Virus record (IMG/VR): IMGVR_UViG_3300043788_000049
Location: 1-64,000 of that record
DNA length: 64,000 bases
Reading direction: 5' to 3' (one strand)
Source of the DNA: a virus
Shown here: piece after piece, positions 1 through 60,475 of the stretch
How positions within the stretch are numbered: position 1 is the stretch's first letter
Layout of the letters: each line of letters opens with the position of its first letter
The notes under the pieces: generated by a model
The model's database searches: none
The model's input: the letters and a program-made list of their open reading frames with translations, nothing else
Told to the model about the DNA's origin: nothing
Position numbers and translations under genes: made by a program

Positions 1-1212
1 AGCCTGACCGAGAAGGCGCCCAACTTCCGAGATGCCCTGCATGAACCCAGACGGGACCGCGCCGTAGAGTGCGGCCGTCCCCACATCGCGAAGCGCCGGC
101 ATGAGACCATTATCCTCGCCGGCCGCCGCGCGCTGGCGCTGGATCATCGGTTCTACAATGCCCTGCCCGGCGGCATTGAGCGCTGCGCCGCGCGCGGCGG
201 CTTCGGCAACGTTCAATCCGGCTCTTTTGAGGCCAGTCAGCCCCAGCGTCTCCGCCAGCTTCGCCTCGCCGGGGCCAGCGGCCAGAAGCGCGAAATTAAT
301 CGGCGAGCGCGCCCAGCCGAGGAAATGCCCGACCCCGCTCACAATGTCAGGGATGACCCCGCCGCCCGTCTTGGCGTAAGCGCGCGTGTCGGCCCCTTCG
401 ACACTTTTATATAGAGCCATCCCGTCATCGAGGACTGAACGGTTCGCGCCGATCGTGCCCAGGATGTCCCGCTCGCGGTCGGAATTGCCGCTGTATTTCT
501 CGGCTAGGTTCTGCAGGTCTTGCTGATAAAGATTGCGCTCGGCCTGCTGGACCTTGCTCATCCATTCTGGTGAGCCAAACATGATCGGGTTTTCGGGCGT
601 GCTCTGGGCCTGAACAATCTGCTTTGCTTGTTCGAGATAGTCCCCCATGAGGGGGTTCTTCATTTTGACGCCTGTCGCCTCATTGATGGCGTCGTTGCGG
701 CGCTGGACCGCTTCGCCGATCGCATTGCTCTGGGCGTCATAGACATCATGATAGCGAGAACTGTCCTGGGCGGTGTTGAGCAGATTGTTGAGAACGCCGC
801 CATGAGGCATCCACTCCGCTTCTGACCTGATGGCTGCTCCAAGCAAGGATTTAAAAGCGCTGGGTTGCGGTGGGGGCGTAGGCAGCCCCGCGGCGTCCGG
901 GGCCGATGCGCCAGGGACCGTCGCGGGCGAAACGAGGTCCTTGGCTTCCCTGATCGCCTCGCCGGCCAGCGTGTCGCTCAACGGCGGCGCGGGGCCGCTC
1001 TTGACATTGCCTGCCTGCAGATCGGTGGAGAGCGGCATCCCGGCGGCGAGCATCCCGGCGGAGACGCGGTGACGCTGATTGAGTTCGTCGTCCGCAGGAT
1101 CAAGTTCGCTATGGGCGTTCGGCAGGTGCGTGAGGTCGAACTGCCGCATCGGTGGCATGGCCGAGGGCGGCGTCGGTGAAACCATCGCCTGATCGGTCGC
1201 GGCGTCGGCCAT
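1..1212 (-). CDS. Large internal virion/ejection protein, N-terminal part (cut by left edge)
   Basis: An open frame of 404 codons runs from an ATG at 1210-1212 to the left edge without a stop. The ATG shares a TGATG overlap with the stop of the lysozyme-bearing virion gene upstream, so translation is probably coupled. The N-terminus is Pro/Ala/Met rich, followed by helical, Gln-rich sequence (about residues 150-290) and a hydrophobic stretch near residue 310. Position after gp14-like and lysozyme-like virion genes is where T7-like phages keep the largest ejection protein (gp16 type). Function is inferred from order and composition; no catalytic motif was seen. It may be the same gene as the partial frame at the right edge. 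Confidence 0.75.
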   Translation of the reverse strand, partial: MADAATDQAMVSPTPPSAMPPMRQFDLTHLPNAHSELDPADDELNQRHRVSAGMLAAGMPLSTDLQAGNVKSGPAPPLSDTLAGEAIREAKDLVSPATVPGASAPDAAGLPTPPPQPSAFKSLLGAAIRSEAEWMPHGGVLNNLLNTAQDSSRYHDVYDAQSNAIGEAVQRRNDAINEATGVKMKNPLMGDYLEQAKQIVQAQSTPENPIMFGSPEWMSKVQQAERNLYQQDLQNLAEKYSGNSDRERDILGTIGANRSVLDDGMALYKSVEGADTRAYAKTGGGVIPDIVSGVGHFLGWARSPINFALLAAGPGEAKLAETLGLTGLKRAGLNVAEAAARGAALNAAGQGIVEPMIQRQRAAAGEDNGLMPALRDVGTAALYGAVPSGFMQGISEVGRLLGQA

Positions 1213-4200
1213 CACTCAGCCTCAGCCGTCTGGGGTGCCGGCTCGCCAGCCTCTAGCAGTTGCCCCGGCGTTGTGGCCGGGGTGCGCTGTGGCGACGCCT
1301 TCGGCTTGAGGAAGGCGTCACCCGCGCGATCGCCCATCATGCTCCGGACCTGATCGAACTGGAGTATCCATTGCTTGCCGTTCTGCCCGAAAACTGGCTT
1401 GGGATTTTCGCCGTTCGGGTCGTGGAGATAGACGGCATAATCGCCGTGGAATAGGCCGTCCTGCTGATCCGGAACCGCTCGAAGCCATGCCTCTTTAAGA
1501 TCGACCGCCTTGAAGTTGCCGCGGGGCGGATTGGGCAGTTGGGACAGATCGCGGTCGGTGATCTTGTTGATCACATCGTCGAATTTGTTGGCTCGAACGT
1601 CTGGCGGGACGAGCACCTTCTGCTGGTTCCCAGCCCAATAGCCGCCGCGATCGATGACGCCGCCATACCAGTTACCGTCCTTATCCTGGGTCGCGCCAAG
1701 CGCCTTCTGATAAGCGGTATCGATAAAAGTATTATCGACAAAGCTCTTGTCAGCCTTGGGATCGCGACCATCGCGATAAGCCTTCGCGCTCATCAGCAAA
1801 TTCGCCATTTCGCGCGTCTGGGAAGTGTAGATGTCGCCAAGCGCCTGACTGGCGTTGCCCAGCGGGTCCTGGCGGCCCTGGCCGAGAATGCTTTCATTGA
1901 ACCGAGGCACGTCGCTCTTGATGGATTTATCGTGGAGCGCCGCTGTGACCTGGGCGATGTCATCGATCGCCCCCGGATCGCCACCCTGGAGAGCGAGCCT
2001 TCCCATGCCCGCAAAGGCCGGCGCATCCGCGCCAATCTCCTTGAAGACGGAGCCAGCCTGCGAGCCCATGCCGGCGACGACGCTGCTCGCGAGATTGATC
2101 ATCGGCTGGCCGCCGTTGCGTGCGATCTGGCGAAACTGCGCCTTCTCCTGAGGCTGGAGATATTGCGGCTCGCCCAGCCCGTAGAAGTTTGCAACCTTTT
2201 CCGCGTCCGCCGCGCGCTGGCGCATATCGCCAACGATGGTTTGGCTGTTGGGATCGAGGGCTTTGACGCCAGGAAGCACGCCATCCTTGACCGCCCGCCC
2301 GAACGCATTCTTCGCAATTTCGCCCTGGTAGGACTTGAGCCACTTCTGGGAGGCGTCGAGCGCTGCGGCTTTGGCGTCGGTGTCTGAACTGTTCGGCTGG
2401 GTCTGGACCTGCTTGACGTATTCGGCCTCCATGTTGTCGACGTTGGCCTGGACTTGGGCCGGCGAGAGGCCGCGGAAGCTGTTGATGGCGTTGCGAGTGG
2501 CCGCGAACTCCGCATAGCGCTGTCGAACCTCTGGGTCTTGGTGGGCGGAATAGCGGTTCTTGTAGTCGTCCGCGGTGTCCTGGCCGACCGGCTGGCCCTT
2601 GATGAGATCAGACGTTGCTGACTTGAGCGCCGCCTTGGCGTCCGTCGATTCCTGCTTCTGACCTTCCGAATTGCGCCGCTCGATCGTCGCAACCGCGTTC
2701 TGGAGCTGCACGCCAAGTTCGGCCTTCTCATCCGGCTTTAGGGCATCGAGGATGGTGCCGGTCTTGCCCGGAGCGAACGCCCCTGGTGCGCCGGTTGCGC
2801 GCGAGCCGGGGACAGGCTGCGTCGAGCCATCCTTCATCACATAGACGAGCGACCCATCCCGAGCATTGGCGACATGGTCGACGCCGTCCGGGCGCTTCGG
2901 ATTGATGCTGTCCGCCTTAGCGCCAAGATCGATCGGCTGGCCGCCTAGAGGAATTAGATCGCGCCCTGGACCCGCCGCGCCGGTCTGGTCGATCGGCAAA
3001 GGCTTTTCTTGGCCTGGAGCCGGACGCGCACCCCTTCTTTTTTGAAATGCCTCCGTGTCCTGTTCCATGAACCGGTGCATTTCTTGGTAGCGGGATTCCG
3101 CCGTCGCTACGTCAGCATAAGCGGGAAATTTCTCGATACCCTCTGCCTTGGCGCGGGCGAGCGCATCTTTTGGCGGCAAAATCTTACCATCCCAGACGGT
3201 TGGAATGTTGTAGGTTTTTCCGCCTATGTCCACTGAGGTTTGGAAAAGCGATGATCGGCTTCCATCGGCATTGTCTACCCCGCCCGGACCATAAAGATTT
3301 GTCAAATGCCTCTGATAGAGCGCTTGTTCCTGCTGCGTCATCTTCAGTGTGCTATTCGCTACATTGAAATTCGTTTGATCCGGTGGACCGGCGCCTTGTG
3401 TTGTGACTGCCGCAGGCGGAGAAAGCCCAACAAAAGCTCCCGACCCTCCATTGGAATAAGCCTGGAACGCCGTCTGTGAGTAGTTTGCGCGCTTGGTGCT
3501 TTCGTCCGGCCCCTGGTCCTTGGGCTTCTCGAAATAGCGCATCCAGATGTCGCTGGCCTCTTTGACGCTCCCGGCGCGATTGACCGCATCCCAAACGGAC
3601 GTCCTGCCGTCCGGCATCATCATCTGCGAGGATTCAAACTTGGCGTAGGCGAGTTGGGTAGCCGGATCGTTGATGTCCTGGCCATTCGCCTTTGCCCAGG
3701 CTTGAGCCTGCGTCCAACGCTCGCCGTTCCATTGGAACTGACCATGCGAGTCTTCATTGTCCCAATTTCCGGCAGTCGTTCGAAGACTGCTTTCTCGGAT
3801 GCCATTGCCAGTGATCGCGGCCGCGCCGATCGGCGATGCGCCAAAGTGAGTAACGAGAGAGCCGGTGACAGCCGTGGCGCGCTGGCGCAATTCAGCCGCA
3901 GAAGCCGGCGGCGCGCTCCAGTCGGAAATGCCGCCGCCGCTTATACCCGGCTGCATCTGATAATAAGGAAGGAGCCGCTTTAATTCAGACGTGTCGCCGG
4001 TCTGGTCCGCGCGCGCGATGGCGATCCGAAGTTGCGCGTAGCTGTAGTTGTGAGCGAACTCCAGCGATCGTTGTTGCCGTTGTTCGGGCGTGATGTAGCC
4101 CTTAGCGACTGCCGCATCGAGCCGCGCGCCGTAGGAACTGATCAGGCTGTTTCGCTGGTTGTCGTCCTGCGTGGAGAGGGCGCCGTTGATCGTGTCGGTT

Positions 4201-4667
4201 TCGGCCTGCCCGAGGCCGGCGACCTCATTCTGGGTGTTAAGCCCGTGGATATGATCGCCAACGGCGATATTGGCCTTCGCCAGCGTCGGGGCCTGCTCGG
4301 TCAGCCAGTTATCGCGCTGCGGTCCTTCTGGAAAGAATTTTGCCGCATTGGCCGCGACCTGATTGAACCGGTCTGGATAATTGTTCTGCTGGACCGCATT
4401 GGGGTCCGTCTCCTTGCGAAGGTCATTCTCGGTGTTGATGAGCCCGACCTGCATGGCCGAATTGGCCTTGGCCGTGGCAAGCTGCTTGTCCTGCTGCGAA
4501 ATCTCGCCGCCGTAGAGGCCGAGATCCATCCCGGCGCTTTCGAAGCCATGGGCGAAGGTCTGCGCGCCCTGCTCCAGTTCGCGCGGTTGCCAACCGCCAA
4601 CGCCCATGCGCCGCGGCAGCTTGTCGGGAAGCGGGGCAATCGCATCTTGGCCGGGGAGCTGGGCCAT
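1212..4667 (-). CDS. Internal virion protein with phage tail-type lysozyme domain (1151 aa)
   Basis: Long helical N-terminal region (residues 1-245), then a lysozyme-like domain at about 265-395 with NGIRESSL (287-294, Glu292 the likely catalytic acid) and GQFQWNGERW. This resembles the phage tail lysozyme family, which opens peptidoglycan during DNA entry. A second module at about 455-540 carries IPTVWDGK and a YQEMHRFMEQDT helix, seen in other phage virion proteins. The rest is helical. TGATG overlap with the gp14-like gene upstream and with the next virion gene downstream. It corresponds by order to the T7 gp15/gp16 class. DNA over about 3000-3450 looks more AT-rich than its flanks, so the middle module may be acquired. 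Confidence 0.82.
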   Translation of the reverse strand: MAQLPGQDAIAPLPDKLPRRMGVGGWQPRELEQGAQTFAHGFESAGMDLGLYGGEISQQDKQLATAKANSAMQVGLINTENDLRKETDPNAVQQNNYPDRFNQVAANAAKFFPEGPQRDNWLTEQAPTLAKANIAVGDHIHGLNTQNEVAGLGQAETDTINGALSTQDDNQRNSLISSYGARLDAAVAKGYITPEQRQQRSLEFAHNYSYAQLRIAIARADQTGDTSELKRLLPYYQMQPGISGGGISDWSAPPASAAELRQRATAVTGSLVTHFGASPIGAAAITGNGIRESSLRTTAGNWDNEDSHGQFQWNGERWTQAQAWAKANGQDINDPATQLAYAKFESSQMMMPDGRTSVWDAVNRAGSVKEASDIWMRYFEKPKDQGPDESTKRANYSQTAFQAYSNGGSGAFVGLSPPAAVTTQGAGPPDQTNFNVANSTLKMTQQEQALYQRHLTNLYGPGGVDNADGSRSSLFQTSVDIGGKTYNIPTVWDGKILPPKDALARAKAEGIEKFPAYADVATAESRYQEMHRFMEQDTEAFQKRRGARPAPGQEKPLPIDQTGAAGPGRDLIPLGGQPIDLGAKADSINPKRPDGVDHVANARDGSLVYVMKDGSTQPVPGSRATGAPGAFAPGKTGTILDALKPDEKAELGVQLQNAVATIERRNSEGQKQESTDAKAALKSATSDLIKGQPVGQDTADDYKNRYSAHQDPEVRQRYAEFAATRNAINSFRGLSPAQVQANVDNMEAEYVKQVQTQPNSSDTDAKAAALDASQKWLKSYQGEIAKNAFGRAVKDGVLPGVKALDPNSQTIVGDMRQRAADAEKVANFYGLGEPQYLQPQEKAQFRQIARNGGQPMINLASSVVAGMGSQAGSVFKEIGADAPAFAGMGRLALQGGDPGAIDDIAQVTAALHDKSIKSDVPRFNESILGQGRQDPLGNASQALGDIYTSQTREMANLLMSAKAYRDGRDPKADKSFVDNTFIDTAYQKALGATQDKDGNWYGGVIDRGGYWAGNQQKVLVPPDVRANKFDDVINKITDRDLSQLPNPPRGNFKAVDLKEAWLRAVPDQQDGLFHGDYAVYLHDPNGENPKPVFGQNGKQWILQFDQVRSMMGDRAGDAFLKPKASPQRTPATTPGQLLEAGEPAPQTAEAE

Positions 4668-5290
4668 CAGGGTAACGGAGCGCTATAGCTATCGGGCATG
4701 GTGCTATAAGTGTTGCCTAAATAATTGCCAGCGCCGGTCCCCAGGCCAAAGCCCATGCCTGCCCCGCCGCGTCCGCTATAGGCCAGCGTGCGAAACATCG
4801 AGCCGGCCCCGCCCGCCAGCGTCCCGACAGCGGCATAGCGAGATCCTTCTTCTGCAATCGATCCGCCGTAAGCCGCCGCCCGGCCCATGCTGGTCAGGCC
4901 CGCCGCCTGATTTTCTCCCTGCGACAGGCTCATCAGGGCATTGTATTCGCCGCGGCCGGCGATCTGGCTCCCGAGGCTGATGACGGATGGCGCCGAGGCC
5001 GAAGCGCCCGATCCCGCCGCGCGCGCCGTCAGGGTTGACTGGACCAACCGCGTCTCGCGCTGCTGCTCCATCATCTGCCGCTGCGCGGTTGCCGTAGCCT
5101 CATCGGCCTGGACGCCATATTCCTGCTGCTGATATTGGCCCATCGCAGCGGCGTTCTTGCCCGAGGCCAGGGTGCCCATCGCGCCAACGCTCGCACCCAC
5201 GGCGCTCATGGCGAGGCCGCCCGCTGTCATCAAGGTGACTGGATCGCGTGGAACGCTGTGGAGAAATGGCAGGCGGTCAAGGAAGCTCAA
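4667..5290 (-). CDS. Internal virion (core) protein, T7 gp14-like
   Basis: A 207-residue Ala/Gly/Met-rich protein. An early hydrophobic stretch (about 20-45) is followed by a Gln-rich helix (QYQQQEYGVQADEA, QRQMMEQQRETRL) and glycine-rich segments at the end. This is the usual look of the small inner-core protein that enters the cell first in T7-like podoviruses. It lies between the tail tube genes and the large ejection proteins, as gp14 does. Its stop overlaps the next ATG (TGATG). Identification rests on order and composition, not on a catalytic signature. Confidence 0.6.
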   Translation of the reverse strand: MSFLDRLPFLHSVPRDPVTLMTAGGLAMSAVGASVGAMGTLASGKNAAAMGQYQQQEYGVQADEATATAQRQMMEQQRETRLVQSTLTARAAGSGASASAPSVISLGSQIAGRGEYNALMSLSQGENQAAGLTSMGRAAAYGGSIAEEGSRYAAVGTLAGGAGSMFRTLAYSGRGGAGMGFGLGTGAGNYLGNTYSTMPDSYSAPLP

Positions 5291-5786
5291 GGACGTAGAC
5301 CCTCAGCCCGTTAATCTCTCTTTTCTCAAATCCTAGCCTTAAAAGCCAGCGTTCTCCCGCAGGATGGGTCTCAGAGGTCGCCACGACGCGCGGAATGCCC
5401 ATCTCCTTGGCAAGTTTAACCGTTGCTAGCCCGGCCTTGTGGAGGGCCATCGGATATTGCCGGGCCTCATCCGTCAGATCGGCGAACATGAGGCGGACAT
5501 TGTTGGGCAAGAAGGCGATGCCGCCAATCCCCACCACGCGATCCTCGACGCGGGCAGCGAAAGCTCGAACCCGGTAGGGCGCGGGCGCGGGCTTGCCATA
5601 GAGGGCGAGGGTATAATTCTCGAAGTCAGCCGCCGTCGCTGGGCCGACGATGATCGGGGGCTTAATTGCTTGTCTCGATCTGGAAGGTGATGCCGAGCAC
5701 GGTCGCTGGTCGCGGCGACTTGGCCTGCAGATAGACGCGGTAGTCGGTATCGGCGTCACCGGCAATCTCGAATTGCTTGCCGTCAT
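5277..5786 (-). CDS. GNAT-like N-acetyltransferase
   Basis: From about residue 42 the sequence reads as a small GNAT domain: GPATAADFENY at its start, VEDRVVGIGGIAF (beta strands), YPMALHKAGLATVKLAKEMGI (acetyl-CoA helix region) and AGERWLLRLGFEKR (the typical terminal strand and helix). T7-like phages often carry such a gene between the tail and internal virion genes; the substrate is unknown. The interval given uses the longest frame, overlapping the tail gene by 125 bases. No ATG, GTG or TTG lies close to the domain start. An ATT at 5664-5666, sharing a base with the upstream TAA, fits the domain boundary better. Confidence 0.65.
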   Translation of the reverse strand: MTASNSRLPVTPIPTTASICRPSRRDQRPCSASPSRSRQAIKPPIIVGPATAADFENYTLALYGKPAPAPYRVRAFAARVEDRVVGIGGIAFLPNNVRLMFADLTDEARQYPMALHKAGLATVKLAKEMGIPRVVATSETHPAGERWLLRLGFEKREINGLRVYVLELP

Positions 5787-8496
5787 ACTGCGTCCAGATC
5801 GTCCCCGCCGAGGTCACGGCTCCATATTCGACCAGGGGAAGCGCATCGAGGACTGCCGGCACCGAGAACAGCCCGCTCACCGTCACGGTAGGGTCGTTTG
5901 GCGTGTAGCGGCCGTAATTCACTCCCTGATAATGCGTTGACGCCAGCACCATGCCGATATGGTCGACGCGCTTTACCTGATTGAGGGCCGATCCCATCTT
6001 GGCCGCATAGGCGAGCTTGGCTGAGATGAACTCTGAATTATACGGCAACCCCACCACGGCCTGCGTCACCGTCACGCCGTTCGGAACAATGACGACGCCC
6101 GCGCCACTCACCACAGCCGTTCCGAGGTCATCGGTGATCCCTGTCACGCTATTCGTGCCCCAGATCGCGACGGTCTGTCCGGCGAGATAGGTAAAGCCCG
6201 AGAGCGCGCTAGTCGCAGCCTGTGGCCCGTTCGGGCCGTAAACCAGCATGCTGTCGACGTTCTTGGTGATCGCCGCACCCAGGCATTCATCGATCCTGGC
6301 AAATTTCTCCAGGTAGCGTTTGGTCGCGCCGCCGATGGTGCGATTGACCACGACATAGACCTGATCCTCGATCGCCCCTGGCAGGACCATGACCTTCTCG
6401 ATCGTCCCGTTTGGCGTCTGAATTTTCCAGAACGCCTCCACCTGATCGTCCACATCGAAGACGAAGGAGACGATCACGCCGTCGGCGCGCACGAGGTTGA
6501 TGCGCGTGTCGGGCTGGCGCTGCACGCGCAACGCAACAAAGCCCGGCAGCCCTATCTCACGGTTAAAGCGGGTCAGATCGGAGGGCCGGTAGTTGTAGAT
6601 CCCGATGTCATAGATGAGCTGATAGAGCCGGGCCCCGGACTGGTCGATGTAGACCGCGCGCTGATCGACGCGCCCCGCCTGGATCGGGTAGGAGCCGTTG
6701 GTCACGGATTGTTTCAGGTTGAAGTTCGTCGGCGTCAGGGGAGAGTTGATCGCGTCCGACAGGGCGGCGATGATCGAGGTATCCGCTCCGGCTAGCAGGT
6801 GATCGAGCGACAGAAGCCAATTGATGTTGGCGATCGGCCCCTTGCCGATGGACTGGTCGATCAGCGCCGCGTCCCCGATCGCGTCGAAGTCGAAGTTGGT
6901 GTAATCGTCCGACATCGACCCCCACCACCGATCGGCCCCGGCCCACCAAAGCCGCCCCTCGTGGAGTTCGACGGAGGTCGGCCAGCCCTCGAAGTTCGAC
7001 CACTCCGATTGCCGCCAGTCATGGCTCGCGGTCGTGTTGTAGAATGGAACCAAGACTTCGATGTTGGCCGAGGTTGAACTGTTGACGGCCGTGATGTGCC
7101 CGACGCCATAACCACCACCGCCGGCATAGTTTATGGTGACGACCATCGTGCCGCTGGTGTAGGCGCCGGGGCCAAACCCAACCTTATACCAAATTATCTC
7201 GTTATTCAGATAATCATTGACCGTGCCGGTCTGGTTGGCGCTGAAGGTGGTGTAGGCAGTAAATCCGGCTATAGCGCTCTCAAAGGACCGAAAGACCGTC
7301 GCCGTGCCTGACCAAGTCCCTGAGACTGATTCGGTAAAGCTCCGATCGGCCACCTGCACATTGGCCGAGCCATTGTTGATCAGCGAAACACCCTGGATCT
7401 CGACCGTGTCGGTATAGCTGTCCGAGGCATTCAGGCTTTGGACGATATTCTGCCCGTTATGGAAAATGCGAAATAGGGTGCCGACGTCCGACGTCTTGAA
7501 CAGCGGCGCGCTCGCCGTCAACGTGGTGTTGCCACTGAGCGCCCCCGGCGTAATGCTGATTTGAGGCTGAGGCGTCGCCGCCTCCATCGGCCCTTTGACC
7601 GGCCGATAATTGACGACCGCCCAGGAATGCGCCCCGTTGATCCTCTGGATCGAATATTGGGCGTAGCCAGCGGCAGCGAAATAGACCACATCCCCGGACG
7701 TGGTGTGGCGAAGGATAGACGGCCCGACAAGCGTGCTCTGCGGCCAGGGCGTCGGGAGCGTAAATGTCCCGGCGGCCTCCAAGGCAATCGAGGACACCTG
7801 CGTTTGTTGTAGACCAGTCGGTTGCGTAAGTGTCGTCGTGTTGGAGTTCTCGGGCGATGTCGTCGCCGAGAATTGAATGAAAACAGTCCCGACCCCGGCC
7901 CCTGGCGTGAAGGCCAGCGAATAGGTGCCGGTATCAAGCACCGTGACCGGGAAGAGGTCTACGCCGCCAGAAGTCGAGCCGACCTGAAAGCTGATCGGGC
8001 CGTTCTCCATCACAATCCGCAACGCATGCTCGGTCGTCTGATCCCCCGACGCGATCGTGCAACTCGTAGACGCAGTCGCCGTAGCCCCGGCATTAAGCGA
8101 GGCGAAGGTCAGCGTCCCCGCCGTCGCGGAGGTCGTCGCGGTCCCTGTCGCCGTCGTTGACCACGAAGCCCCAAACGCCGGAACCGTCGTCCCGACGCTT
8201 GCCCGCGTCAGCAGCGCATCGCTGATCCAGACCCGCATGGTGCTGTCGGTCAGTTCGACTAGCGCTGTGTCGGTGAACTCCGCGACGAACTCCACAAACT
8301 CCGCCGGACTATCGTTCAGGATTTCCCCAATCCACTCCGTCCCCGGCCGGAAGGTCATCGGGCCGACAATCCGCGGCATCCAGTTCACCATGGACTGCGC
8401 GGCTAAACGCACATGTTCAAGGTCAGTTCTTGCCAGCGCTAGTGGCGAAATTTCGCCCCTGTTACAACTGCTGAAAATTTCGCCCTGGCGTGCCAT
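5662..8496 (-). CDS. Tail tubular protein B-like (tail nozzle), 944 aa
   Basis: The N-terminus, with NRGEISPLALARTDLE then MPRIVGPMTFRPGTEWIGE, is typical of the large tail proteins of podoviruses that follow the tubular protein A gene (T7 gp12 class, the nozzle of the short tail). The remainder is beta-rich with many Thr/Ser/Gly repeats. A central segment, LHEGRLWWAGADRWWGS, also recurs in this family. The start ATG shares a TAATG overlap with the stop of tubular protein A, so the two are translationally coupled. Assignment is by family resemblance and gene order. Confidence 0.75.
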   Translation of the reverse strand: MARQGEIFSSCNRGEISPLALARTDLEHVRLAAQSMVNWMPRIVGPMTFRPGTEWIGEILNDSPAEFVEFVAEFTDTALVELTDSTMRVWISDALLTRASVGTTVPAFGASWSTTATGTATTSATAGTLTFASLNAGATATASTSCTIASGDQTTEHALRIVMENGPISFQVGSTSGGVDLFPVTVLDTGTYSLAFTPGAGVGTVFIQFSATTSPENSNTTTLTQPTGLQQTQVSSIALEAAGTFTLPTPWPQSTLVGPSILRHTTSGDVVYFAAAGYAQYSIQRINGAHSWAVVNYRPVKGPMEAATPQPQISITPGALSGNTTLTASAPLFKTSDVGTLFRIFHNGQNIVQSLNASDSYTDTVEIQGVSLINNGSANVQVADRSFTESVSGTWSGTATVFRSFESAIAGFTAYTTFSANQTGTVNDYLNNEIIWYKVGFGPGAYTSGTMVVTINYAGGGGYGVGHITAVNSSTSANIEVLVPFYNTTASHDWRQSEWSNFEGWPTSVELHEGRLWWAGADRWWGSMSDDYTNFDFDAIGDAALIDQSIGKGPIANINWLLSLDHLLAGADTSIIAALSDAINSPLTPTNFNLKQSVTNGSYPIQAGRVDQRAVYIDQSGARLYQLIYDIGIYNYRPSDLTRFNREIGLPGFVALRVQRQPDTRINLVRADGVIVSFVFDVDDQVEAFWKIQTPNGTIEKVMVLPGAIEDQVYVVVNRTIGGATKRYLEKFARIDECLGAAITKNVDSMLVYGPNGPQAATSALSGFTYLAGQTVAIWGTNSVTGITDDLGTAVVSGAGVVIVPNGVTVTQAVVGLPYNSEFISAKLAYAAKMGSALNQVKRVDHIGMVLASTHYQGVNYGRYTPNDPTVTVSGLFSVPAVLDALPLVEYGAVTSAGTIWTQYDGKQFEIAGDADTDYRVYLQAKSPRPATVLGITFQIETSN

Positions 8497-9137
8497 TAGT
8501 CCAATTCAGCCAACGGCATACCGATCGGCAGGATCGAGCCGCGCGGCGCGCGCGAGGTAACCCAAGATCCCCAGGGCAGGCGGCCAGCGGGCAAGTCGAA
8601 CGACTCCTGCGACAGCGCCTCGATCTTCTTGCGCTTAACCAGCTTCTCCAGCCGATCGACTTTGGCGCCGTCCTGCTTGATCCGAGGCGCGATCAGCCAT
8701 GCGAGATAGCAGGCAAGATATTCAGAAAAGCCCGGCGTCCACAGGGCCATGTTGAGGCCGTAGCTCGGATCGTTGGAGACGTATTTGAAGTAGAGCGGCG
8801 CAATGTCCGCATACAGGACATAATTGACGTCTTCCATCTCTCGGATCAGCGGGTTGAACGCCTCGTTATCCGCGACTTGGTAGGTTTTGACCCAATCGGG
8901 AGGTTTGGTGAAGCAGAACTCAAAGCCAAAGGCGGGGGACTGATTCGCATCCGGGTTGAGCTGCGAAATGCGGATCGCCCATCTCCAATATCCGGAATAG
9001 AGGCAGAACAGAATGGCGTTACTCCACTCGTCATCCAAGTAACGCTTAGGTTCGCGGTTCTCCGTCAAAGAAGATAATTTTCTTTCTTCCAAGTATCGGA
9101 GTGCTGCATTGTATAGACCGATTTGTGAAGCTGCCAT
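8496..9137 (-). CDS. Tail tubular protein A-like (gp11-type gatekeeper)
   Basis: A 213-residue protein beginning MAASQIGLYNAALRYLEERK and continuing with REPKRYLDDEW, GYWRWAIRISQL and PPDWVKTYQV, all typical of T7-like tail tubular protein A. This protein joins the portal to the tail nozzle. An HNH-AP2 endonuclease gene ends six bases upstream. The first 100 or so bases of this gene are markedly AT-richer than the rest, which may mark the edge of the inserted endonuclease or its co-conversion tract. Confidence 0.8.
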   Translation of the reverse strand: MAASQIGLYNAALRYLEERKLSSLTENREPKRYLDDEWSNAILFCLYSGYWRWAIRISQLNPDANQSPAFGFEFCFTKPPDWVKTYQVADNEAFNPLIREMEDVNYVLYADIAPLYFKYVSNDPSYGLNMALWTPGFSEYLACYLAWLIAPRIKQDGAKVDRLEKLVKRKKIEALSQESFDLPAGRLPWGSWVTSRAPRGSILPIGMPLAELD

Positions 9138-14438: not shown

Positions 14439-15302
14439 TTAGCTGATCGCCGAGGCGTCGTGGAACACTTGGACAACGCCCTTGGTCTGCAAGAGCTTGG
14501 AGCCCATGTAGACGGAAGTGCGCGCCCACGAATAATCCTGGCGGCGGTGGTAGTCGGCCATCGCCATGATCTCACCGGAATTGACCGCGTGGCCGATCGC
14601 ATTGCGGTGATAGGCGTAGCACTGCTCGGCATTGGTCCCGAGGCCGGTGAGCAAGGCGCTGGTGATCCAGTTGAAGCCCATCCAGCGCATCATCTTGCGC
14701 GGCACGCCGCCGCCGTTATTCGGCAGGGGCTGTTCAAGGACCTTCACATCGACGTAGAAAACGTTGGTGAATTCCTTGACCTGATAGAGGTAGCCGATGA
14801 AGCCGGGGCTAACGACGAAGAACATATTGTCGATTTCGTCGACTGCGACCGCGTTATTGCCCAGCTTGGTCATGGTGCGTGACACCATGGACTGGTTCGC
14901 CGTCGAGCCGGTCGGGCCGCCGATGACGTTGGTGGCCGCCGAGAGAGCCGAGAGAATGTCCAGGTCGATCGTGCGATTGATCACCTTCATGCTCGTCTCT
15001 TGCATGATGCGCTTGCCGTCGCCCTGGCTGGCGAAGAGGTTGAACCCGGTGCGCTGCACGAGATCGTGCTGTTCGATCAAGGTCGCCGTGAACTGATTGA
15101 GGTTGTCGACACGGGACGGGATCAGGCCGTTGACGCCGCGGGTTTGCGCGATCGCGCCGCCAGAATCCGCAACCAGGAAGATCGCTTGGTTGCCCTTGAT
15201 TACCGCCTCTGTAATCACAGTGGTGCGAAGCATAGACATGCCGACTTCGAAGCCAGCAATGAATTCTTGGCGGTATTGCACCTGAAAAGCTGTGTCGGAG
15301 AT
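14439..15302 (-). CDS. Major capsid protein (apparent ATC start)
   Basis: Reading starts TAFQ..QYRQEFIAGFE, then TEAVIKGNQAIFLVADSGGA, YQVKEFTNVFYVDVKVLEQP and AYHRNAIGHAVNSGE, as in major capsid proteins of T7-like and related podoviruses. It lies directly after scaffold and an inserted endonuclease gene. A perfect TAGGAGG lies five bases upstream of an ATC at 15300-15302, and the residues from there (SDTAFQ) look like the true N-terminus. The first standard start is a GTG at 15279-15281, about 26 bases from the ribosome site. Length is 287 residues from ATC, 280 from GTG. Confidence 0.82.
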   Translation of the reverse strand: MSDTAFQVQYRQEFIAGFEVGMSMLRTTVITEAVIKGNQAIFLVADSGGAIAQTRGVNGLIPSRVDNLNQFTATLIEQHDLVQRTGFNLFASQGDGKRIMQETSMKVINRTIDLDILSALSAATNVIGGPTGSTANQSMVSRTMTKLGNNAVAVDEIDNMFFVVSPGFIGYLYQVKEFTNVFYVDVKVLEQPLPNNGGGVPRKMMRWMGFNWITSALLTGLGTNAEQCYAYHRNAIGHAVNSGEIMAMADYHRRQDYSWARTSVYMGSKLLQTKGVVQVFHDASAIS

Positions 15303-15562
15303 GGTAACCTCCTACCAAAAGAGCCAGGCAATAGCCTCGGTCTACTTTCGATAGGGTTTTCCGCAGTCGTGATTACCTCGGGTTGCCTCACATTCCTGTC
15401 AGGGCCGAAGTATATCTAGCGGGGCCTCTCTCCAGTTATTTCCTTTGGAAGCGGTCGGGCCGCAAAGGCGGGTTGCCAACAGCTACTATCAAAGGTGTGG
15501 GTTACCGCGCCCACACCCTTCTAATAGCCTTACCTGCGTCACTTGTAAATAGGGGTAGTGTT
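15303..15562 (-). promoter_or_regulatory. Capsid gene leader
   Basis: About 260 untranslated bases separate the HNH-AP2 stop from the capsid start, long for this phage. It holds a perfect eight-base-pair hairpin (15494-15517, GGTGTGGG with CCCACACC) and, at its end, the AGGAGG ribosome site. No clear promoter or group I intron core was recognised. Confidence 0.5.
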
Positions 15563-16087
15563 TTAGGCGGTCAGCCAATCGAATCTGGCGAACTCGCCCC
15601 ATATGGCTTCAGCCGCCGCGCGGTAGACTGCGCGGGCTTCTTCGAGGGTGTCATAGGTGCCAAAGAATTGGCCCCGCGCTCGCACCTGATATTTTCCAGT
15701 CGATTTAAGCTTGTGGACGCCTTTGGCCCCCGAAGTGTTGCGCGTGCTGTTTGCCATGTTGGCGAGGTTCTGTGAGCCGGTGGCTGGGCGCAGATTACTC
15801 CATCGATTATTGAGTTTATCTGCATCTTGGTGATCAAGGTCGAAACGGCACCACTCTCCCGTCATCAGAAGATATGCGATTCGATGTGCTAGAAAGGAAT
15901 CCTTAAATAGGCCGACAACGCGATAGCCATCTATGCTGATTTTGCCAGCGATCTTGCCGGGGGCTGATTTCCCGCTACGCGCGGGCTGTTTTATCCAAAT
16001 GAGGTCGCCGCTATCCGGATCGTATGCGAGAAATTCTGCGATTTGCTCGAATGTCGGGAGTTGTTCTATCGTTCGACGAGCCGTCAT
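15563..16087 (-). CDS. HNH homing endonuclease with AP2 domain
   Basis: 174 residues. LAYDPDSGDLIWIKQ near the N-terminus, AHRIAYLLMTGEWCRFDLDH, QDADKLNNRWSNLRPATGS (HNH core) and the AP2 end GAKGVHKLKSTGKYQVRA, FFGTYDTLEEARAVYRAA. Same architecture as the copy before tail tube A. It lies between scaffold and capsid genes, splitting a normally tight pair. Composition is AT-richer than the flanking structural genes, as expected for a mobile gene. Confidence 0.88.
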   Translation of the reverse strand: MTARRTIEQLPTFEQIAEFLAYDPDSGDLIWIKQPARSGKSAPGKIAGKISIDGYRVVGLFKDSFLAHRIAYLLMTGEWCRFDLDHQDADKLNNRWSNLRPATGSQNLANMANSTRNTSGAKGVHKLKSTGKYQVRARGQFFGTYDTLEEARAVYRAAAEAIWGEFARFDWLTA

Positions 16088-16164: not shown

Positions 16165-17268
16165 TCACGCCGCCTTGCGCGGGTTCCCATTCTCGTCGAT
16201 CAAGCCCTGCTTCATGAGCGCATCGAGAATATCCCGATATTCCTGTTGCATGGGCTGGCTCTGCGGGCCGAAATAATAGGGATTGCTCCGGTCGGCCATG
16301 CCGCGGCGCATGTGACCCTCGATTTCGCCCTTGCGATCCATGGCGGATTTGACCGGATCGCCCTTGTCGCCCAGGACCAGAGCGCCGAATGGGTTGTTTT
16401 GCAGCATCGTCGCCGCGGCCCATTCCATGAAATCAGGCCGGTTGCCGATCAACTTCCCGTCCGGCCCGCGCGCGCCGATGATGTCCTGGAACAGCGTGTT
16501 GCCGTCGAAGAAGCTCAAGGCCGCGTTGTAGCGCTTGGTATATTCCGCGCCCCACTTCGCCCGAAGGCTCGTGTCGGCCTGGAGGGTGTCTTTATTGTCC
16601 TGTTGGGAGAGGCGATCGACCGATTGCTGCTGCTCGGAGGCATACCAAGCCAGCATGTCCCGGAAGGCCTCGGGCGCAAGATTGTGTTCGAGGGCGTGGG
16701 CCTTGAAGGAATCAAGCGCCGGCTTGTCGTATTCGCCCCAGACCCAGCCATTGCCGATGTCGGTCGAATAGCCTTCCGCCGAGTCCGGGATGCCGTGGCT
16801 CTTGCGATATTCAGCCAGTTCCTCCGGCGTGTAGTTGTTCGGGAGGGCCTTTTTCAGGTCCCCCGAGGACATGCGCTGCTCCATCGCCAGCCATGATTTG
16901 CCGATGGCTTCCGGCGACGTGAACCGCGCGAGACGGTCGATCAGGGATTTCGGCGGGTTGGGGCCGGCGATCTCCTTGGCGAATTTCTCGCGCCAGTCGG
17001 CGGGCCAGTCGGCAGGCGTGGCCGGCGGCGGCTGCGTGCCGTCAAGGGGTTTCTGGGCGAGGGTTGTGGGCTTGGCCGGCGCGGGCGGTGCAGGTGGAGC
17101 GGGTGGAGCGGGTGGAGGCGCATCGCCAGCCGGCGGGGCCGCGGGCGGCGTGGCAGGCGGAGTAGCCGGCGGCGCAGGAGGCGGGGCGGTCGGATCGCTG
17201 CCGGTGGGCGGCGGCGCGACAACGCCAGGACGGCCGCCATCGGGGTTCTGGGTGTCGCCGTCAGCCAT
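16165..17268 (-). CDS. Capsid scaffolding protein
   Basis: 367 residues. Residues 1-80 are a Pro/Ala low-complexity tail. Then come DWPADWREKFAKE, LPNNYTPEELAEYRKSHGIP and RAKWGAEYTKRYNAALSFFD, typical of podoviral scaffold proteins that direct prohead assembly and then leave. Position between portal and capsid fits. An eight-base-pair hairpin lies in the 77 bases between its stop and the following endonuclease gene. Confidence 0.78.
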   Translation of the reverse strand: MADGDTQNPDGGRPGVVAPPPTGSDPTAPPPAPPATPPATPPAAPPAGDAPPPAPPAPPAPPAPAKPTTLAQKPLDGTQPPPATPADWPADWREKFAKEIAGPNPPKSLIDRLARFTSPEAIGKSWLAMEQRMSSGDLKKALPNNYTPEELAEYRKSHGIPDSAEGYSTDIGNGWVWGEYDKPALDSFKAHALEHNLAPEAFRDMLAWYASEQQQSVDRLSQQDNKDTLQADTSLRAKWGAEYTKRYNAALSFFDGNTLFQDIIGARGPDGKLIGNRPDFMEWAAATMLQNNPFGALVLGDKGDPVKSAMDRKGEIEGHMRRGMADRSNPYYFGPQSQPMQQEYRDILDALMKQGLIDENGNPRKAA

Positions 17269-17642: not shown

Positions 17643-19370
17643 CTACATGGCCCCGCCCTGTTGCGGTAATTGAGCCGGGATGACGCCTCCTTGTTGAAGG
17701 AGGTTCGCCGCATTTCCGATCTTCGACGCCACGTCAGCCCCATGCCCGGCCGTGTTCATCGTGTCTTGGGTCTGCTGCTGGGCGGCCATCGCCGCGCGCG
17801 ACTGCGCCTTGAGCCGCGCAGCGACTTCCTTCGGGACCATCCAGGTCGCCGGGGCGCCGGTGCCTTCAACCGCATCGCGGAAGGCGGTATCGAGGTCGAC
17901 GTCATGGACGACCGTCGGATCGACCGCGGCCGCGGCCTGCGTCACCTGCATCAGGGTCGTGAAGGATTGCACATTCGCCCTCGTGGCGGCCATCGTTAGC
18001 GGCGTCTCGAAGATAAACCGGACGTCCATGCCACGGAGGATTTTCGGCATATAGCCGAGGTCCCCGAAGGCGTTCATCCGCAGCATCATCTCGAAAACGC
18101 GGTCGCAGACGGCGCCATTGTATTCGACCTGGAGGGGCTCGAACAACGGCGTGGTGTTGCGAATATATTCCTCCCAGAGTTTCTGGACCTCGAACGCCGT
18201 GCGGGCGTGGGTGGTGTCCGGGAGCTTGATCTGATTGAGGAAGTGGCCGGTGGCGATGATTTCGGCGATGCGCTTTTCACGATCGACGCCCCAGCCGAGA
18301 TTGGGGTTGGTGCCAAGCAGCGGTTCGAGGACGGGCCCGGTGCGCTCGTCGTAATCGGCGTCGACCCAGGTAATGCCGCCGGCATAAGTGTTCACGCCGC
18401 CCTGGATCGCCTCGAAGACGCCCTTGTAGGGTGGATCGACCGCTTTCTGGCCCGCTTCGAGCAGCGTCAGGGTGATCTGCTGGAGCATGCGCGCGTCGGC
18501 GATGTTGACGACAGCCGGGGGGGAGTAGCCGTAGCCAAAGCCCGGCACCGTCTCCCAGCGCGGGCAGACGTAGCCCAACTGATACTGGCCCATTTCCTCC
18601 AGGATCGTCTCGTTATCGACATCGATCCAGATCGAGACGAAGGGCAGCTTGCGCCCGCTCATCCGGATGATCTGGCCGCCCTTAGCCTGCTCATCGATCG
18701 TCCCGGTGCCCTCATAATCGCTGCTCGGCATGACGATGTGCCGGCATTGGACATCGGTGTGCGGGTCTTTCTCGGCCAGGGTCTTGACCTTTGCGTCGAC
18801 CTTATCCGGGAACAGCTTGATGAGGTTCGCGCGGGTGATCTTGCGCTTGACGTGGATCGTGTCGACTTGCCCGCTCGGGTCCTCGGCCCACGCCACGTCC
18901 CGCATGTGGATCGTGCGGAAGAGAAGCCCGTTCCAGTTCGAGTTCGGGCGCAGCATGATGCAGGCGTTGCCGATCGTGACGAAATCGCGGTCCCCCTCCT
19001 TCGCCGCGCGCGACCAGCCGGACAGATTGTCATACATGGCCTGCCGCATTTGCTCGGTGGCGAAATCCAGCCACTTGCGGGCCATCGTGTCCTTGTTGAT
19101 TCGCTCGGATTGCGTGCGGGCATGGAACCACGTTTGACCCGGAGGTCGAAGCATGGCAGAAATGGCGTTCGCCAAGTCCCGCGAGGCCATTGCAGGCACG
19201 CCCGTCATCAAGTGACTAGCGAATTCCATGCCTATGCTACGGACGTAGCTGTAATCCGCCCGTTCTGGATATAGCTGTTCAGTTATTGCTTGCCAAAGAC
19301 TAATGATAGCTCGTCGGCGGTTGAACAAATCGTCGCCAATGCTTATTAACTCGGCAATTCTACTTTTCAT
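17643..19370 (-). CDS. Portal protein (head-tail connector family)
   Basis: 575 residues. Resembles the T7-type head-tail connector: RRAIISLWQAITEQLYPER, MASRDLANAISAMLRPPGQ, WFHARTQ, then WETVPGFGYGYSPPAVVNIADARMLQ and Gln-rich C-terminal helices. The portal forms the ring through which DNA is packaged. The ATG at 19368-19370 is used because it forms an ATGA overlap with the stop of the endonuclease gene upstream. The first 170 bases of the gene are visibly AT-richer than the rest. Confidence 0.88.
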   Translation of the reverse strand: MKSRIAELISIGDDLFNRRRAIISLWQAITEQLYPERADYSYVRSIGMEFASHLMTGVPAMASRDLANAISAMLRPPGQTWFHARTQSERINKDTMARKWLDFATEQMRQAMYDNLSGWSRAAKEGDRDFVTIGNACIMLRPNSNWNGLLFRTIHMRDVAWAEDPSGQVDTIHVKRKITRANLIKLFPDKVDAKVKTLAEKDPHTDVQCRHIVMPSSDYEGTGTIDEQAKGGQIIRMSGRKLPFVSIWIDVDNETILEEMGQYQLGYVCPRWETVPGFGYGYSPPAVVNIADARMLQQITLTLLEAGQKAVDPPYKGVFEAIQGGVNTYAGGITWVDADYDERTGPVLEPLLGTNPNLGWGVDREKRIAEIIATGHFLNQIKLPDTTHARTAFEVQKLWEEYIRNTTPLFEPLQVEYNGAVCDRVFEMMLRMNAFGDLGYMPKILRGMDVRFIFETPLTMAATRANVQSFTTLMQVTQAAAAVDPTVVHDVDLDTAFRDAVEGTGAPATWMVPKEVAARLKAQSRAAMAAQQQTQDTMNTAGHGADVASKIGNAANLLQQGGVIPAQLPQQGGAM

Positions 19371-20014
19371 GAAAGTGCCCTCTCGACCGGCCAGCCGGAG
19401 GTCATGCGCGAGCAAAAAGTGCTGTAGCTGAATGGCGGCGAGGCAAGCCGATAGGCTTCGGCCCAAGTCATTTCCTTGCCGCGAAAGATCGTCCAGCGCG
19501 TGTTACGTTTGTTGTTCGCTTGCTCGATCGGTGTAGCCCAGCGCACGTTGCCCGCTTCGTAATTCCCATCGGTATCAGGAAAGCGATCGAGCGAATGCTT
19601 TGGCGACGGCGATCGGCCCATGTCGGCGAAGAACGCCTCGAACGAATCATCCCATGTCTGGGAGACCGCTACGCCTCTGCCGCCATAGAAAGCGTAATCT
19701 TTGCAGTTCGGATTGTTGCAGCGGTCCCGCATGTTGGCCCAGATGCCGTATTCGCGCGTATCATGCGCTCCGTGTTTCACGGCCATCGGGGCTAGAACTT
19801 CGGTCGCGTGGCGCGTTGCTTGCTCGATATGTAGGCAGCCACAAGACTGGACGCCTTTGTTCCGCAAACTCGCCCCCCTCGCGGTGATCTGGCCGCCGCA
19901 ATCGCAGCGGCACGTCCACAGCGCCGCGCCATATCGGTCGTTGCCCATTTGAGCCAAGACCGTGAGCCGGCCGACCTTGAGGCCCGTCATGTCGATAAAG
20001 CGCGGATGGGCCAC
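19367..20014 (-). CDS. Free-standing HNH-superfamily homing endonuclease (zinc-ribbon type)
   Basis: 215 residues. The N-terminus GLKVGRLTVLAQM is followed by a zinc-binding part (CRCDCGG, SCGC). The nuclease core is YGIWANMRDRCNNPNCKDYAF, YGGRGVAVSQTWDDSFEAFF, HSLDRFPDTDGNYEAGNVRW, ATPIEQANNKRN, and a helix-turn-helix-like tail follows. This is a common phage free-standing endonuclease family. Its TGA overlaps the portal ATG. A close relative precedes large terminase and a third precedes the endolysin. Confidence 0.85.
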   Translation of the reverse strand: MAHPRFIDMTGLKVGRLTVLAQMGNDRYGAALWTCRCDCGGQITARGASLRNKGVQSCGCLHIEQATRHATEVLAPMAVKHGAHDTREYGIWANMRDRCNNPNCKDYAFYGGRGVAVSQTWDDSFEAFFADMGRSPSPKHSLDRFPDTDGNYEAGNVRWATPIEQANNKRNTRWTIFRGKEMTWAEAYRLASPPFSYSTFCSRMTSGWPVERALS

Positions 20015-47695: not shown

Positions 47696-48249
47696 TGTTG
47701 CCCCCATTTGCCCCAATATTTTACGGCCGCTGCGGAATACGCAGCGCTTGCTTCTTCCGGCGTTCCAAATGCGCCAAGATGGATGAGCGTGCCGTTAATT
47801 CTTATCTTCGCGTGCCACCGCACGGTCTTCCTAACGGCTCGAAAAACACCCCTAAATCCAGACGTATTGTCGATTTGCTTGTTGCGGTTGCGAGCGTTTT
47901 CAACCTGCGTTGCAGGTCTAAGATTTTTCCACCTATTGTCAGACTTAACCCGGTTTATATGATCAATTTCGGCGATCGGCCATTCGCCGGTAATTATCAG
48001 CCAGATTAAGCGATGCGCTAGATACAGCCGACGCTTAATCTGGACCGCGACATACCCCTTTTTACCAATGGTGCCAGCAATTTGCCCAGCCCACCTTTTG
48101 CGCCACCACAAAAGCTTTCGGCCAGTAAACCCAGGCCATTCTTTCCACCGTAAAATTCCTGTTTCGCTTTCATATTCCAATATTGACCTGACAAATTGCG
48201 CCGACAGGTCGCTCTTCAATGGCTGGCCGTTATTGGCGAGAGCAGTCAT
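47692..48249 (-). CDS. HNH homing endonuclease with AP2 domain (185 aa)
   Basis: ESETGILRWKEWPGF, LAHRLIWLIITGEWPIAEID, HINRVKSDNRWKNLRPATQV (HNH), then AP2: SGFRGVFRAVRKTVRWHAKI, LGAFGTPEEASAAY. It is wedged between exonuclease and RecT genes with ATGA overlaps on both sides. Markedly AT-rich compared with its neighbours. Confidence 0.88.
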   Translation of the reverse strand: MTALANNGQPLKSDLSAQFVRSILEYESETGILRWKEWPGFTGRKLLWWRKRWAGQIAGTIGKKGYVAVQIKRRLYLAHRLIWLIITGEWPIAEIDHINRVKSDNRWKNLRPATQVENARNRNKQIDNTSGFRGVFRAVRKTVRWHAKIRINGTLIHLGAFGTPEEASAAYSAAAVKYWGKWGQQ

Positions 48250-49184
48250 TCCCCTTCCATCCTTAGCTTTTGCTCGATCACGCCGCGGCGGCGCTCGCTT
48301 ATTTCCAGATATTGAACTTCCTCTTGATTTCCCCCAGGGCCAGCCCACAGGCCCGAGTTGAACGCCTTGACGAAACGCTCCAGGGCAAAATGGTTTTGCT
48401 TTTCCCCTAAAACCAGATCGTGCGGCTTGAGCGTGACCATCCGAGCCGAATAGGGAGGGGTCTTGCGGACGAAGTAGAAGGAGAAGTCCTCGATCTCCTG
48501 ACCGAATAAAATCCGGTGGCCCTCCGCGACTAATGCAGCTTGTTGCTGATAATTATATTCCCCGACGGTGCGAACGAGATCGTCCCACTTCACGCTCTGG
48601 GTTGTCTTGAGATCCAAGTAGTTGCCCGAATCAGTCGGGATGACGTCGGGCCGCGCGAGCAGCCAGATCCCCGTGCTCTCGTCCTGCCATGCCATGGTCA
48701 TTTCTATCAAACCATTGAGCACTCCCGCGCGCACCAGGGGCAGCTTGCCCAGCCCCGTCGCCATGCCTTTGATGTCCTCGACCATGTCGGGCGTCAGGAC
48801 GGTCAGGTCCGCCTCGGCGGCCTCGACGAGCCACTTCTTGCATTTGAGAGAATTGCCGCTCCATGGCTTCTCGTTGCCCTTCTCGTCCGTGTAGGTTTCC
48901 GGCCGGATGACGAAGCTCTTGCGAAACTCGGATTCCCCCATGAGCAAATGGTGGGTCGCGCGCCCGATGATGAGGTCTTTGTTCTCGGGCTTCTCGATCC
49001 GCTCCGGGTTGTAGGGCGAAAACGCCCAATAGTCGGCCTCCGAATCATCGAAGATTGTGCGGAGACTGGACGAGGACAGGGTGGGACCGACGCAAAGTCG
49101 TCCACTATGATAAGCGGAAATTCCTACGTTCGAATAAACGCCGGGCCTGTCGATGGGCTGGCCGGACCAGGGGATGATCTTCAT
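48246..49184 (-). CDS. RecE-like PD-(D/E)XK exonuclease (312 aa)
   Basis: GVYSNVGISAYHSGRLCVGP, TLSSSSLRTIFDDSEADYW, IGRATHHLLMGESEF, WLLARPDVIPTDSGNYLDLK and QQAALVAEGHRILFG follow the RecE/Exo VIII-like nuclease layout (DUF3799 type), with the PD and DLK residues as active site. It would resect double-strand ends for the annealing protein. Confidence 0.85.
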   Translation of the reverse strand: MKIIPWSGQPIDRPGVYSNVGISAYHSGRLCVGPTLSSSSLRTIFDDSEADYWAFSPYNPERIEKPENKDLIIGRATHHLLMGESEFRKSFVIRPETYTDEKGNEKPWSGNSLKCKKWLVEAAEADLTVLTPDMVEDIKGMATGLGKLPLVRAGVLNGLIEMTMAWQDESTGIWLLARPDVIPTDSGNYLDLKTTQSVKWDDLVRTVGEYNYQQQAALVAEGHRILFGQEIEDFSFYFVRKTPPYSARMVTLKPHDLVLGEKQNHFALERFVKAFNSGLWAGPGGNQEEVQYLEISERRRGVIEQKLRMEGE

Positions 49185-49375
49185 CGCCTTGCCCACAGCA
49201 CGAGAAACGGCAGGCCGGTCACGGCGCACAAGACTAGCCCGAACAAAAAGCCGGGGATGCCGTGATGAAGGCAATATTCAGCTATTTGGAACCCATCGAC
49301 GATGTCCGTGACAAACAAAACGAACATGGAAAGCACGGCAGTCATTATCCAAGCACCCAATAGATCTCTTTTCAT
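49181..49375 (-). CDS. Small membrane protein (64 aa)
   Basis: Two hydrophobic segments: LGAWIMTAVLSMFVLFVTDI and GIPGFLFGLVLCAVTGLPFL. ATGA overlaps with both neighbours. Not recognised. Confidence 0.6.
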   Translation of the reverse strand: MKRDLLGAWIMTAVLSMFVLFVTDIVDGFQIAEYCLHHGIPGFLFGLVLCAVTGLPFLVLWARR

Positions 49376-60035: not shown

Positions 60036-60475
60036 AGTCCCAGCCCCTCATGACTAATGAAACCTTGGCCAACTTGGTCGATCATGTCGACCAACTGCTT
60101 TGGCGCTTTCATAGGTGTGCAGGCGTTTGGTCCATCGATCCAGAAGATAACGCCTCCGTCTCCTATTCGAGCCAGAACGGCCTTATCGCCGGATGGAAAG
60201 CCGGCCCCTGTTTGTGGGTTTAGGATGTAAATGCCGCGCAAGAACTCCCATTGGTCTCTATTTAACTCAATCCAGGCTGTGCTGCCATTTGCGATAGCAA
60301 GCGCTTTAGCCTCTTCGATCGTCCTACAGGGGCCTCGTGGCGTCTGAGCCGCCGCCTTGTGCTGCATGTCGGCCATCACGAACAAGAGAAATATCACGAT
60401 GGCCAGGACTGCGGCGATGAGCCAGTCGGTGCGGCTGAGATCCTCGGGCTTCTTCCGATACTGCCGCAATGTCAT
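60032..60475 (-). CDS. Membrane-anchored hypothetical protein (147 aa)
   Basis: TDWLIAAVLAIVIFLLFVMA is a transmembrane helix; the rest is a compact alpha/beta domain (WIELNRDQWEFLRGIYILNP, AVLARIGDGGVIFWIDGP). Not recognised. Confidence 0.58.
   Translation of the reverse strand: MTLRQYRKKPEDLSRTDWLIAAVLAIVIFLLFVMADMQHKAAAQTPRGPCRTIEEAKALAIANGSTAWIELNRDQWEFLRGIYILNPQTGAGFPSGDKAVLARIGDGGVIFWIDGPNACTPMKAPKQLVDMIDQVGQGFISHEGLGL

Follow-up and report, generated by a model that had tools for sequence, protein, structure and literature searches.

The major capsid gene and its start position

The DNA analysed here, which we call the window, is a 64,000-nt portion (positions 1 to 64,000) of the 87,271-base IMG/VR record IMGVR_UViG_3300043788_000049. 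Its minus strand carries an open reading frame at 14439-15302, comprising 287 codons followed by a stop, that matches the Phage_capsid_2 family PF19821 (E = 4.6e-18; 65.9 bits, passing the curated cut-off of 25) and the 'major head protein' family phrog_3437 (E = 1.7e-39). These matches bear out the initial assignment of the frame as the major capsid gene. The frame is intact, and its product shares 46-88% identity with the capsid proteins of 59 IMG/VR loci, the nearest relative being 87.5% identical. On the minus strand, the 5' end of the gene reads TTT TGG TAG GAG GTT ACC ATC TCC GAC ACA GCT TTT CAG GTG CAA TAC. A Shine-Dalgarno sequence, TAGGAGG, occupies positions 15314-15308 and is followed, after the 5-nt spacer TTACC, by an ATC at 15302-15300. 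An in-frame TAG (15314-15312), four codons 5' of the ATC, overlaps this ribosome site and closes the frame, so that no upstream start is possible, and no standard in-frame start lies 5' of the ATC. The first standard start is a GTG at 15281-15279; 26 nt separate it from the final G of TAGGAGG. The preliminary description had pointed to each of these elements, the five-base spacing, the upstream TAG and the distant GTG, and all of them are where it placed them.

Relatives were collected as 59 IMG/VR loci from a first query, complemented with more from two further queries, and 70 distinct loci were retained after dropping those identical over 40 bases on each side of the start. At the position of the ATC, 64 of these carry ATG and five carry GTG (69/70), while the remaining one, L140, has its ATG one codon earlier; ATC was found at this codon in none of the 70. 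Four loci from bacterial genomes, three of Mesorhizobium and one of a Hyphomicrobiales metagenome-assembled genome, also have ATG, and thus a standard ATG or GTG sits exactly at this codon in all but one of the 74 relatives checked. Most relatives begin with M[AS][DE][TS]AFQ, the conserved residues being (M)-[AS]-x-[ST]-A-F-Q. The prediction that relatives would show ATG here was therefore confirmed, and SDTAFQ was rightly recognized as a normal capsid N-terminus. Because relatives carry ATG or GTG at this codon, the ATC sits at the start position. Compared with the other PF19821/phrog_3437 capsid genes, from IMG/VR phages and Mesorhizobium loci, the window's gene has the same protein, gene position and N-terminal sequence and, as in most of them, the same structured leader, but it differs in carrying ATC where they start with ATG or GTG.

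Translation could instead begin at the in-frame GTG at 15281, and the capsid protein would then lack its first seven residues. GTG is among the standard start codons, but this one has no ribosome site within reach, and starting there would remove the SDTAFQ residues, which are conserved across the family. In addition, relatives have codons such as GTC, GTA, GTT, ATC, ACC or GAA at this place, which are not starts there. We therefore rejected the GTG, whose use appears very improbable. Taken together, the sequence data argue strongly for AUC initiation at the capsid gene, and this uncultured phage probably begins its capsid gene at a very rare start codon. We assign a probability of about 0.6 to a real ATC start of the capsid gene in the viral genome.

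The ribosome site and the reality of the C

The segment AGGAGGT (TAGGAGG, 15308-15314) pairs with the anti-Shine-Dalgarno sequence with a duplex energy of -10.9 kcal/mol, versus -9.3 to -3.7 (median -6.5) in 67 relatives. The window's site thus ranks first of 68 by duplex energy, and its spacing is functional. It had also been described as the best ribosome site in the window: it is near the top, but it ties with or falls just below a site near 60475 (-10.9 and -11.7, among 41 genes with homologues in a related phage). According to Belinky et al. 2017 (PMC5622118), stronger Shine-Dalgarno sites tend to be gained where the start codon is weaker, and the window shows the same combination of a poorer start and a stronger ribosome site as the start-codon switches in that study. 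The compensation statistics reported there, however, concern GUG and UUG, and a switch to AUC is not reported, whereas the window's codon is AUC. The strong Shine-Dalgarno fits compensation for a weaker start and argues mildly for a real C; it is one case of 68, and part of the site is also constrained by a leader hairpin.

Alternatively, the ATC might have entered the assembly through an error in the consensus or through fixation of a rare or defective variant, in which case the true virus would have ATG or another standard start and an ordinary capsid gene. One base change suffices for this, every relative has a standard start, and the sequence comes from a single metagenomic contig, two exact-pattern scans of IMG/VR having returned no second contig of the same virus. 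Moreover, a real switch from AUG to AUC has a very low prior, no such case being reported for 61,358 ancestral AUG starts, and this prior is by our estimate comparable to plausible error rates. Conversely, an unrelated base error does not predict the strongest ribosome site of 68, the ORF is intact, and comparison of 41 genes with the related phage gave no sign of poor assembly. We regard such an error as a possibility to be taken seriously, if not the reading that we favour.

Start codons elsewhere in the record

Four other GGAGGN5ATC sites are present in the record. The three on the minus strand, at 71087, 74020 and 78191, were rejected as starts, since they lie inside other frames or genes, and the one on the plus strand (12926) lies opposite minus-strand genes. 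Start codons were compared for the 41 genes of the record that have homologues in the related phage of L002, the nearest relative. Their starts are mostly ATG, GTG or TTG, five of the 41 (e.g. 5665-8505 and 48249-49277) having no standard start that bears a clear ribosome site, and no second likely non-standard start was indicated among these homologue-supported genes.

Neighbouring genes and likely host

An HNH endonuclease gene (15563-16087, minus strand; PF13392, E = 1.3e-9; phrog_99, E = 6.2e-50) lies between the capsid leader and a gene at 16165-17268 (minus strand). The latter occupies the place of the scaffold protein upstream of the capsid gene; it matches phrog_3742, a family of unknown function, and is called scaffold-like from its position. 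The HNH gene, 260 nt upstream, might be an intron endonuclease, in which case an intron or other RNA processing would join a distant ATG to the capsid frame. However, no intron RNA family matched at E values up to 5, the HNH gene is 5' of the conserved leader, and the window is collinear with its relatives in ribosome site, leader and start position, differing in the codon alone. Such processing is scarcely credible. L002 has the same arrangement, with two HNH-like units at 3852-4775 separating its scaffold-like gene from the capsid leader; in many other relatives, about 150-250 bases lie between the end of the upstream ORF and the capsid start.

Further upstream, a second ORF that appears HNH-like by eye (19367-20014, minus strand) overlaps the 5' end of the portal ORF, which has a TTG at 19466. 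Since alignment with other relatives begins only at about residue 32-34, portal translation probably starts internally, at an ATG near 19370. Three of the related loci, L164, L165 and L166, are Mesorhizobium contigs carrying relatives of both the capsid gene and the leader motif. A distant relative is present in a Pelagibacter phage. Together with the relatives in Mesorhizobium genomes, it suggests an alphaproteobacterial host.

A conserved structured leader precedes the capsid gene

The 100-150 bases 5' of the capsid start contain a conserved RNA motif, composed of a stem ending in NGG, an internal loop in which a C faces four bases (CAAC or ACAA in many cases), and an inner stem. In the window, this hairpin motif (xxCGG-C-CC...GG-NNAN-CCGxx) maps to 15373-15413 on the minus strand, where it matches the covariance model R1 with 22.8 bits; it covaries and is conserved in most relatives. 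A second module (GGC-CCGC ... GCGG-AAAA-CCC; 15361-15426, minus strand), identified from the fold and from its likeness to the motif, encloses it. A further hairpin, read from the sequence at 15454-15480 (minus strand), has the same internal loop with the strands exchanged (GUUGG-CAAC-CCGC...GCGG-C-CCGAC). Repeated hairpin modules with one shared internal loop are seen over 15357-15480 (minus strand), and they also occur in most related loci (L003, L010, L016, L057, L165 and others). Closer to the gene, the minimum-energy fold predicts a hairpin formed by CCUAUCGAAAG and CUUUUGGUAGG (15311-15355, minus strand), the 3' arm of which holds the UAGG of the Shine-Dalgarno sequence.

The window's leader folds well below its shuffles (z = -3.65). 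Among 29 distinct leader-motif sequences, stem covariation reached 0.372, versus 0.133+/-0.018 in shuffled and at most 0.103 in slid alignments, and 54 versus 25 cells were changed on both sides; these figures lean somewhat towards structure, since the motif anchored the alignment, which had in part been selected for pairing. In most loci tested, the best match of the covariance model is at the same place, some 105 to 60 bases 5' of the start, and the model also matches Mesorhizobium loci left out of its building. No Rfam family matches the capsid leader. RNAalifold found no pairs in the alignment of the whole leader, because variable spacers misalign the modules; a single-module alignment resolved the motif. 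Over all leaders, sequestration of the Shine-Dalgarno is slight (open 0.33, versus 0.41 in shuffled sequences). The modules may possibly constitute a new RNA element of this group of phages, either cis-regulatory or protein-binding, and a natural guess from the predicted folds is that the leader would control capsid translation.

The start codon in a predicted helix

The U and C of the AUC are also part of a predicted helix, P0, in which UGGAGA (15434-15429) pairs with UCUCCG (15301-15296), within 15296-15434 on the minus strand. The predicted pair probability is 0.84-0.89 over five Watson-Crick pairs, and 0.85-0.89 for the U and C of the AUC, and P0 is lost in silico when AUC is changed to AUG. 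The start codon might then be an arm of a regulatory RNA helix, ATG having been traded for ATC to keep the helix. In two near relatives, L002 and L005, the G of the AUG belongs to a GUCGG with which a leader CCGAC can pair, in L005 in the shorter of two contexts only. Between P0 and this helix, G-C appears to be replaced by C-G at the third base of the start codon, and a second double change is seen at +6. The predicted folds of L003 and L006 contain no such helix, and 13% of the shuffled versions of the window's leader yield a helix as long as P0. As a family-wide feature, P0 was rejected: over 52 leaders, the mean shuffle percentile was 0.65, with only three at or below 0.1. A trade of ATG for ATC to preserve this modelled helix therefore seems unlikely. 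If it were true, capsid initiation would be controlled by the leader and the weak start codon together.

A possible route to initiation at AUC, and its precedents

We propose that the ancestral capsid start was ATG or GTG and would later have changed to ATC. The 30S subunit would be recruited by the unusually strong UAGGAGG five bases 5' of the AUC, where initiator fMet-tRNA, with its anticodon CAU, would be accepted despite a third-position C-C mismatch. The product would be fMet-SDTAFQVQYRQ..., the same as in relatives, and part of the lost initiation would be made up by the strong ribosome site. Actual initiation at AUC, this compensation and any regulatory role of the leader are what we infer.

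Natural noncanonical starts are on record, namely ATT in E. coli infC, ATC in Streptomyces infC and GTC in Streptomyces sigR, and are repressed by IF3 (PMC5472188), which disfavours weak third-position pairs (PMC10158994). The window's capsid start is the identical codon to that of Streptomyces infC, and it shares with E. coli infC and Streptomyces sigR a homologous start position occupied by a codon outside ATG, GTG and TTG. These genes, however, encode regulatory proteins, whereas the window's gene encodes the major structural protein of a phage. If real, the ATC would be a start codon of a rare but already described type, found in an unusual gene.

With one 5' UTR, four codons including AUC initiated at 0.1-0.3% of AUG in E. 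coli, versus 5-20% in C. butyricum and 7-17% in C. sporogenes for the same codons and UTR, and the clostridial values were higher still with a second UTR (PMC9680021). The difference between E. coli (0.1-0.3%) and C. butyricum (5-20%) indicates that the cost of such a start is host-dependent. Among 61,358 ancestral AUG starts, one switch to AUU was recorded and AUC was not reported, and selection for AUG is strongest in highly expressed genes (PMC5622118). A capsid gene is an unexpected place for a poor start. No IF3 gene was found in the 87-kb record and no tRNA gene in the window; the nearest relative, L002, carries at least 11 tRNA genes just 5' of its capsid region (34-3282, plus strand), whereas the window has none.

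Implications

Gene finders assume ATG, GTG or TTG, and the present case indicates how rare starts of this kind can be located by homology in viruses that have not been cultured. Apart from the start codon, the conserved leader offers a candidate, open to test, for control of capsid synthesis at the level of translation. The capsid is the most abundant phage protein, and an ATC start there would matter: if real, it would mean that a near-cognate start can serve even a gene in high demand when its ribosome site is strong, or it would indicate a host whose initiation is lax.
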